Source of the DNA: Gongronella butleri
Lineage: Eukaryota > Mucoromycota > Mucoromycetes > Mucorales > Cunninghamellaceae
Length of the DNA: 64,000 bases
Direction of reading: 5' to 3'
NCBI GenBank assembly: GCA_025201375.1
Contig: JAIWZP010000057.1
Location: 62,001 to 126,000, forward strand
The position numbers were made by a program, and so were the translations under genes. The notes beneath the pieces are model-generated. The model saw nothing but the letters and a program-made list of their open reading frames with translations, ran no database searches and was not told where the DNA came from. Below are positions 10,084 to 11,804 of the stretch, piece after piece; the first letter of the stretch is position 1; every line of letters starts with the position of its first letter.

Positions 10084-11331
10084 TTAGGCAAAAGCCGAGA
10101 CCTGCTGCTCGACGGCAGGCTGGAACGAGACGGACTTGATGGCACGAACTTGGTTCATGAACTCATCAAAGAGATACTCGGTGTCCTGGGGACCGCCCTT
10201 GGCTTCCGGGTGGAATTGCACCGAGAAGATGGGCTTGGACTCGTGCTGGATGCCCTCGTTGGAGCCGTCATTGGCATTGACAAAGAGCTTCTTCCAGCCG
10301 GCAGGCATGACCTTGTCCTGGAGGGCGTAGCCGTGGTTCTGCGACGTGATGTAGCACAGACCAGTGTCGACATTGAGGGCAGGCTGATTGTGGCCACGGT
10401 TGCCAAAGGGCAACTTGTACACGTCGAGGCCAGCGGCCATGCCAAGCAACAAATTGCCCATGCAGATACCAAAGATGGGTTTGTTCCAGGAGTCAATGGC
10501 GGTACGGAGGTGACCGACGGTTTCCGTGCAGGTGGAGGGGCTGCCGGGGCCATTGGAGATGAACAGGCCATCGAATTGGTCCTTGACCTTGTTGATGTCA
10601 TAATTCCAGGGGAACACGGTCACGTGAGCACCGCGCTTGGTCAGACAGCGCAGGATATTCTGCTTGACACCACAGTCGATGACGGCAATCTTGATTTCGC
10701 CTTGCGGGTTGAATTCGAGCGGCTCCTTGGTTGACACCTTGGCAACCAAGTTCTCCTGGTTGGGGTCGGGGAACGTCACATCATTGTGCGTAGCAGCAGC
10801 ATCGCCGACGGCAAGGTGAGCCAACGTCGAGCCCTGGTCGCGGAGCAATTGCGTGAGCGAGCGCGTGTCGACACCCGTGATGGCAGGCACATTGTAGCGC
10901 TGGCACCATTGGCCAAGCGACTCGACGGCGGTCCAATGCGAGTAGTGCGTGGCATAATCATTGACCACGATGCCTTGGACTTGGATCTTGTCCGATTCGA
11001 AATACTTGGAAAGACCGTATTCATCGAGAATTTGTCCGGGCACGCCATAGTTGCCAATGAGCGGCTGCGTGAAAACGAGGATTTGGCCAGTGTACGAAGG
11101 GTCGGTCATCGATTCGGGGTAACCCACAAGCGACGTGGTGAAAACAGCCTCGCCAAAGGCAGATTCATTGGCACCAAACGATTTGCCCTTGAAAACTTGG
11201 CCGGATTTGAGCTTGAGCGCGGCAGGAGCAAGACCGGAGGTGTGCGTGGCGAGACCGCGGCGGAGATGGAGCGTCGCCGTGGAAGGCGCCTTGGAGAGAG
11301 TGGCTTGAATGGCTTTGGTGACAGAGATCAT
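10084..11331 (-). CDS. CPA1: Arginine-specific carbamoyl-phosphate synthase, small subunit
   Basis: Single-exon frame of 415 aa. The N terminus (MISVTKAIQATLSKAP..., rich in S, T, R and K with few acids) looks like a mitochondrial targeting peptide. Residues about 35-180 are the CPSase small-chain domain (LKLKSGQVFKGKSFGA, GYPESMTDPSYTGQI). Residues about 210-390 are a class I glutamine amidotransferase: nucleophile Cys in FGICMGN, SQNHGYAL, and the HPE triad part in QFHPEAKGGP. It hydrolyses glutamine and passes ammonia to the large subunit for carbamoyl phosphate in arginine synthesis. The residue after GICMGN is Leu, where most active enzymes have Gln (GHQ). The leader carries an AAP uORF (11427-11577) and GCN4-type sites, so control by arginine and by amino-acid starvation is likely. 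Confidence 0.95.
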   Translation of the reverse strand: MISVTKAIQATLSKAPSTATLHLRRGLATHTSGLAPAALKLKSGQVFKGKSFGANESAFGEAVFTTSLVGYPESMTDPSYTGQILVFTQPLIGNYGVPGQILDEYGLSKYFESDKIQVQGIVVNDYATHYSHWTAVESLGQWCQRYNVPAITGVDTRSLTQLLRDQGSTLAHLAVGDAAATHNDVTFPDPNQENLVAKVSTKEPLEFNPQGEIKIAVIDCGVKQNILRCLTKRGAHVTVFPWNYDINKVKDQFDGLFISNGPGSPSTCTETVGHLRTAIDSWNKPIFGICMGNLLLGMAAGLDVYKLPFGNRGHNQPALNVDTGLCYITSQNHGYALQDKVMPAGWKKLFVNANDGSNEGIQHESKPIFSVQFHPEAKGGPQDTEYLFDEFMNQVRAIKSVSFQPAVEQQVSAFA

Positions 11332-11426
11332 TTTTCAAAAAAAGAGTAGATGGGATGGAATATAAAAAAAAATAGAGCAAGAGATGCAGGAACAGAGAGA
11401 GAGACAAAGACTAACAGAGGGGAAGT

Positions 11427-11577
11427 TTAGAAGCTACCAGAGGATTTCCAGACTATGAAAAAAAAAAAAGCAAATGGGTGAGTAAAAAAAAAAATTAAAA
11501 TCAAGAAATGGTAAGGATGACATACTTTGATCGCAAATATAATCGGCTGAGCACTTTTCAAAGGCGTGAATGTACAT
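11427..11577 (-). CDS. Arginine attenuator peptide uORF (AAP), spliced
   Basis: Exon 1 is 11577-11526 and exon 2 is 11452-11427, joined across a 73-nt intron (11525-11453, GTATGT...CATAG). The spliced frame is 25 codons plus TAA. Its second half reads ADYICDQIWKSSGSF, with Asp at 12, Tyr at 13, Asp at 16, Trp at 19 and Lys at 20. These are the conserved positions of the fungal attenuator peptides of arg-2/CPA1 (D12 and W19 are essential in Neurospora), and yeast has the closely similar DYISDHIWK segment. In those fungi the nascent peptide stalls the ribosome at the uORF stop when arginine is high, which lowers CPA1 translation. The stop lies about 95 nt before the CPA1 ATG, with no ATG between. 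No in-frame ATG competes unless transcription starts upstream of 11718. Confidence 0.88.
11453..11525 (-). other. Intron inside the AAP uORF
   Basis: Donor AAA|GTATGT, T-rich body, acceptor CATAG|TC; 73 nt, with the sizes and signals of the other introns here. It splits the codon for Ile-18, just before the essential Trp. If retained, the uORF reads on through Phe/Ser-rich sequence to a stop just upstream of 11434 and loses the IWK end. Confidence 0.85.
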
Positions 11578-11775
11578 AAAGCAACGGCTTGATAAGATCG
11601 AGGTTCGTTTGCAAAGATGTAAAAAGCAAAAGAGGATAACTACGCAGAAATTGGGCGAAGAAAAGTGAAAAAGAAGAAGAAAAAGGATGGAAAAAAAATT
11701 TTGGGGGCCCTTTTTCATCAAAATGTGTCATCGCCAGCTCCTAGGCGGAGTCCAATTCCTCGGGGACCAATCAGG

Positions 11776-11804
11776 TGACTCGGAGCTCAATCAAAAATGA
11801 GTCA
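11776..11804. promoter_or_regulatory. GCN4/CPC1-type sites of CPA1
   Basis: TGACTCG at 11776-11782 and a perfect TGAGTCA at 11798-11804, beside a CCAAT pentamer at 11767-11771. They lie about 200-230 nt upstream of the AAP start. TGA(C/G)TCA is the binding site of the general amino-acid control activator of fungi. Factor binding is inferred. Confidence 0.6.

Follow-up and report, generated by a model that had tools for sequence, protein, structure and literature searches.

A probable divergent arginine attenuator peptide, its reading frame apparently completed by splicing, upstream of CPA1 in Gongronella butleri

The window analyzed here, a 64,000-nucleotide stretch of the Gongronella butleri genome, carries on its minus strand the gene CPA1, encoding the small subunit of arginine-specific carbamoyl-phosphate synthase (CPS). 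The gene is a single, intronless open reading frame of 415 residues (10084–11331), comprising CPSase_sm_chain and GATase domains. One further CPSase_sm_chain match was found in the genome, on contig C1, and presumably represents CAD, the pyrimidine gene. Apart from the window's own protein, the best match to CPA1 is a protein from Hesseltinella vesiculosa, with 87% identity over the whole length, followed by proteins from Chlamydoabsidia and Halteromyces, then two from Cunninghamella. Hesseltinella belongs to the Cunninghamellaceae, order Mucorales, and the other three genera are placed alongside it. The CPA1 protein thus upholds the zygomycete lineage that had been proposed for this DNA.

On the 5′ side of CPA1, also on the minus strand, lies a 25-codon upstream open reading frame (uORF; 11577–11427), which encodes MYIHAFEKCSADYICDQIWKSSGSF once a predicted 73-nt GT-AG intron (11525–11453) is removed. 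Exon 1 (11526–11577, 52 nt) encodes M1 to Q17 together with the first base of codon 18, and holds Asp-12, Tyr-13, and Asp-16. The predicted intron (11453–11525; GTATGT...TCATAG) is in phase 1, falling within the Ile-18 codon, and exon 2 (11427–11452, 26 nt) supplies the remainder of Ile-18, Trp-19, Lys-20 to Phe-25, and a TAA stop codon at 11429–11427. An intercistronic leader of 95 nt (11332–11426) separates this stop from the CPA1 start. Should the intron be retained, the same ATG opens a frame of 47 residues (11434–11577), which lacks the Ile-Trp-Lys part, matches no Pfam family, and is not AAP-like. Recomputation reproduced the coordinates, the 73-nt intron, the 25-residue peptide, and the placement of Asp-12 and Trp-19 given in the original prediction, and equally its statement that intron retention yields a different, longer uORF.

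Two features of the leader bear on how ribosomes might use it. Past an ATG at 11718, the leader contains just two more ATGs before that of CPA1: the uORF start itself and another within the intron. The base at position −3 is a T at the uORF start codon and an A at the CPA1 AUG. Further upstream, approximately 220 nt from the uORF, is a TGACTCA sequence (11798–11804, minus strand), presumably a Gcn4/CPC1-type site. As TGASTCA occurs seven times in the window, near its chance frequency, this site is weak evidence and was given no weight as support.

Arginine attenuator peptides (AAPs) are best considered here alongside their known representatives. In both yeast and Neurospora, as described in two papers (PMC7969011, PMC11550727), ribosomes stall at the stop codon of the AAP when arginine is high, which lowers translation of the main frame; the same papers describe a poor start context for the yeast CPA1 uORF, such that leaky scanning feeds CPA1, and an mRNA that is open to nonsense-mediated decay. 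The predicted Gongronella peptide shares its register with the AAP of Neurospora crassa arg-2 (P0122, MNGRPSVFTSQDYLSDHLWRALNA): both are encoded by a uORF of the CPS-A small subunit gene, and Asp-12, Tyr-13, Asp-16, and Trp-19 occupy the same positions. The Neurospora peptide differs in its length of 24 residues, in possessing Gln-11, Ser-15, and His-17, and in an identity of 5/11 with the predicted core, SADYICDQIWK. The AAP of Saccharomyces cerevisiae CPA1 (P0123, MFSLSNSQYTCQDYISDHIWKTSSH) is also 25 residues long and features a DYIxDxIWK core identical to SADYICDQIWK at seven of 11 positions, but this core is offset by one residue, with Asp-13 in place of Asp-12. The uORF of yeast is not known to contain an intron.

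Comparison with the protein family gave a signal that is in register but low in score. Leader_CPA1 (PF08252) was the sole Pfam family matched by the spliced peptide (E 0.033, 14.0 bits), with residues 10–22 aligned to model positions 10–22. The curated cut-off for this family is 18.5 bits, which yeast (58.8 bits) and Neurospora (56.0 bits) surpass; the spliced peptide falls below it, and is therefore not a formal member of PF08252. An unrelated human protein in the structure database gives a similarly weak match of 14.9 bits. The peptide alone is consequently insufficient, and its location before CPA1 carries the claim. When 5.8 billion proteins were searched with the spliced peptide, seven relatives were identified, each with a Leader_CPA1 domain and all from ascomycete fungi, and none from Mucoromycota; among the 127 proteins retrieved, these seven alone contain the AAP core motif. 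When the whole genome was searched in six frames with PF08252, neither a match nor a candidate emerged, partly because the intron splits the core and also because the spliced peptide is itself a weak match.

What we claim is accordingly an AAP-like mode of working, rather than formal family membership. The uORF is located in what is presumably the transcribed leader of an arginine-specific CPS small-subunit gene; the peptide, if the predicted intron is removed, has 25 residues, within the length of about 24–25 that characterizes AAPs; and the Asp/Tyr/Asp/Trp core is present at family spacing. Position, length, core, and register together make a divergent homolog of PF08252 the best reading, and probably the right one. 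The peptide does depart from the family at residues 11, 15, and 17, which are Ala, Cys, and Gln, versus the Gln-11, Ser-15, and His-17 of all seven database AAPs. These changes, along with the low profile score of 14.0 bits, would also be expected of a decayed AAP, one in which the motif was inherited, the response to arginine was lost, and the uORF persists as a mild constitutive brake. We consider decay rather unlikely, as Asp-12, Tyr-13, Asp-16, Ile/Leu-18, and Trp-19 have been retained despite both the great age of the split and the interruption by an intron; a decaying sequence should not have managed this.

The AAP reading depends on the intron. Its splice sites were compared with those of 39 introns inferred from neighboring exons in genes for the proteasome, Ras, and TCP1 (61–185 nt, median 92 nt). 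For the proteasome and Ras genes, 26 of 27 and 59 of 93 rows, respectively, provided 37 exon pairs, of which 34 contained a candidate intron and 26 an intron of exactly the expected length; for TCP1, 26 of 32 rows provided 15 pairs and 13 exact introns. The 5′ and 3′ site comparison thus uses 39 exact introns from 52 pairs, picked by expected length, such that single introns may be wrong (two end in AAAAAG). The AAP intron has GT-AG ends, and its length of 73 nt lies inside the range of this set. Its 3′ splice site outscores all 39 inferred introns and is preceded by a polypyrimidine tract (11457–11470, minus strand). The 5′ splice site, AAA/GTATGT, is weak, with a score of 3.49 that exceeds those of 5/39. 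A candidate branch point, CTCAC (11478–11482, minus strand), has its branch A at 11479, at a distance of 26 nt from the end of the intron. The motif CTCAY occurs close to the 3′ end of 15 of the 26 proteasome and Ras introns (1.4 expected) and of one of the 13 from TCP1 (16/39 overall); its rarity in the TCP1 set makes CTCAC weak support for a branch point. In its ends, length, 3′ site, and branch motif the predicted intron resembles a spliceosomal intron of this genome, but its 5′ site ranks above only five of the 39. As a separate observation, the frequency of CTCAY in the proteasome and Ras introns (loci L083–L139) hints at an unusual branch-point consensus, but the TCP1 introns (L140–L168), with their single case, do not share it.

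A second candidate 5′ splice site, TAT/GTACAT (11570–11578, minus strand), overlaps the uORF start codon. Its score of 5.02 exceeds those of 6/39 inferred introns. Of the 69 GTs within the coding region of CPA1, none reaches this score and two reach that of the AAP 5′ site. When the 29 GT-AG pairs of the leader were ranked by a score that excludes exon bases, the pair 11575–11453 scored highest (22.1), ahead of the AAP intron in second place (21.6); with exon bases added, the order of the two 5′ sites is unchanged. No pair in the CPA1 coding region scores as high as the AAP intron (0/318). In a constructed isoform, splicing from 11575 to 11453 would take out the start codon of the uORF, and the resulting leader, read from 11700, would be free of upstream ATGs.

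These sites make it conceivable that splicing acts as a second switch on arginine control, as the original prediction had proposed. Intron retention, giving the 47-residue uORF, or use of the 11575 site, giving no uORF, would each produce a CPA1 mRNA blind to arginine, and the ratio of isoforms would be controlled. The shared and very strong 3′ site, the two weak 5′ sites that compete for it, and the lack of any intron in the CPA1 coding region itself would suit such an arrangement. However, a 5′ site of the start-codon type arises from any ATG followed by TA, five of the inferred introns possess 5′ sites weaker still than that of the AAP intron, and the RNA of the uORF region, with its intron, is predicted to fold no better than shuffled sequences do (z 0.90). 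These two hints, the weakness of the AAP 5′ site and the presence of the start-codon site, may be accidental, and constitutive splicing accounts for all of the observations. We thus retain from the earlier interpretation the divergent AAP with its splice-dependent core and regard the second switch as improbable. A fuller version, in which the single strong 3′ site is paired with one 5′ site in the attenuator core and another at its start codon, so that alternative splicing chooses between a working sensor, a dead uORF, and no uORF, appears very unlikely. The likely reading of this locus is instead a divergent AAP whose frame becomes complete through splicing that is probably constitutive.

To estimate how readily such a core might appear by chance, every ATG frame was scored against the AAP core, either unspliced or with one intron of 45–190 nt removed. 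The spliced peptide is the best-scoring product of the 469-nt leader (38.7, against 17.7 for the unspliced form and approximately 64 for the yeast and Neurospora AAPs). Both strands were also scored in 469-nt tiles, which partly overlap and were drawn from the window together with 58 further loci in the genome (L002, L083–L139), some of which themselves overlap. Only 2/1,972 tiles reach 38.7, both of which overlap each other and contain the uORF; the next tile scores 28.3. Dinucleotide shuffles of the leader reached the score in 0/20,000 cases and, in a larger run, in 1/200,000, and the motif DY[ILVM]xDx[ILVM]W appeared in 0/200,000 shuffled leaders. Fitting a Gumbel distribution to the first set of shuffles gives 0.005 per leader, a value that counts against the AAP reading and conflicts with the direct counts; our chance estimate is taken from the counts. 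Resemblance to the AAP core is thus unlikely to be accidental. That there is no AAP here, and possibly no intron, is extremely improbable: the peptide is short and the match to the human protein scores about as well, but the shuffle and tile counts oppose it, and gene, length, and register are all right for an AAP. The Leader_CPA1 register of residues 10–22, taken with these counts, bears out the initial observation of an AAP-like uORF upstream of CPA1 whose core is split by a predicted intron.

From these comparisons a mechanism can be proposed. Transcription would begin upstream of 11577, and the intron would be spliced out of the transcript. Because the intron interrupts the key motif, the attenuator would work only after splicing, and the prediction that its core is present solely in spliced mRNA is well supported by the sequence. 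Many scanning ribosomes would probably bypass the uORF start and initiate at CPA1 instead, since the T at −3 suggests a poor context; the remainder would translate the uORF and make the AAP. In high arginine, the Asp-12/Tyr-13 to Trp-19 core of the nascent peptide would then act within the exit tunnel to stall the ribosome at 11429–11427, the stall site expected by analogy with known AAPs. A stalled ribosome would block scanning to CPA1 and perhaps also promote mRNA decay, as precedents in yeast and Neurospora suggest. Unspliced mRNA would carry only the longer, non-AAP uORF and should ignore arginine. The T at −3 of the uORF, the A at −3 of CPA1, and the scarcity of upstream ATGs fit the mechanism of yeast and Neurospora once the intron is removed. 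A poor start context, if the T at −3 makes one here, would be shared with the yeast CPA1 uORF (PMC7969011).

AAPs are already known from beyond the ascomycetes, as Cryptococcus is a basidiomycete. Its CPA1 homolog, CND01050, is described in PMC7049704 as possessing an AAP uORF with strong ribosome occupancy and a repressed main frame, and is thus a likeness to the present case outside Ascomycota. The literature searched, some of it available in part, contained no report of an intron inside an AAP or of an AAP in Mucorales, and no paper on introns in uORFs or on uORFs in Mucorales; a single paper, PMC7049704, mentions both an arginine attenuator and Rhizopus. The AAP survey of Hood (2007), which lay outside that search, is the likeliest place for such a report and may contain one. 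The predicted intron-split AAP of this Mucorales fungus therefore appears to be an unusual form of a known arginine switch, a variant possibly already included in that survey. If the reading is correct, the arginine attenuator predates the split between Mucoromycota and Dikarya. It would also follow that an arrest core can be put together across an intron, and that mRNAs from a single gene differ in their sensing of a metabolite according to whether they have been spliced. The arrangement offers a reason for plain six-frame searches to overlook peptides of this kind and, if real, would make splice-aware uORF searches in early-diverging fungi worthwhile.

Several further observations concern CPA1 and its surroundings. 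No relatives of the CPA1 locus were found in viral contigs. A scan of genome contigs with the Mucorales CPA1 alignment returned at least 587 relatives; the best 80 all bear bacterial titles, mainly Bacteroidales and their kin, at 48–55% identity, and none were used. Rfam detects nothing at the CPA1 leader and a single tRNA in the window, where a tRNA-Ser (aga) gene lies on the plus strand at 613–695. The CPA1 protein is extended at its N terminus (11240–11331, minus strand); the extension includes an LRRGLAT-like stretch and may resemble a mitochondrial presequence. It is also present in relatives, although the Rhizopus protein (P0022) is without most of it.
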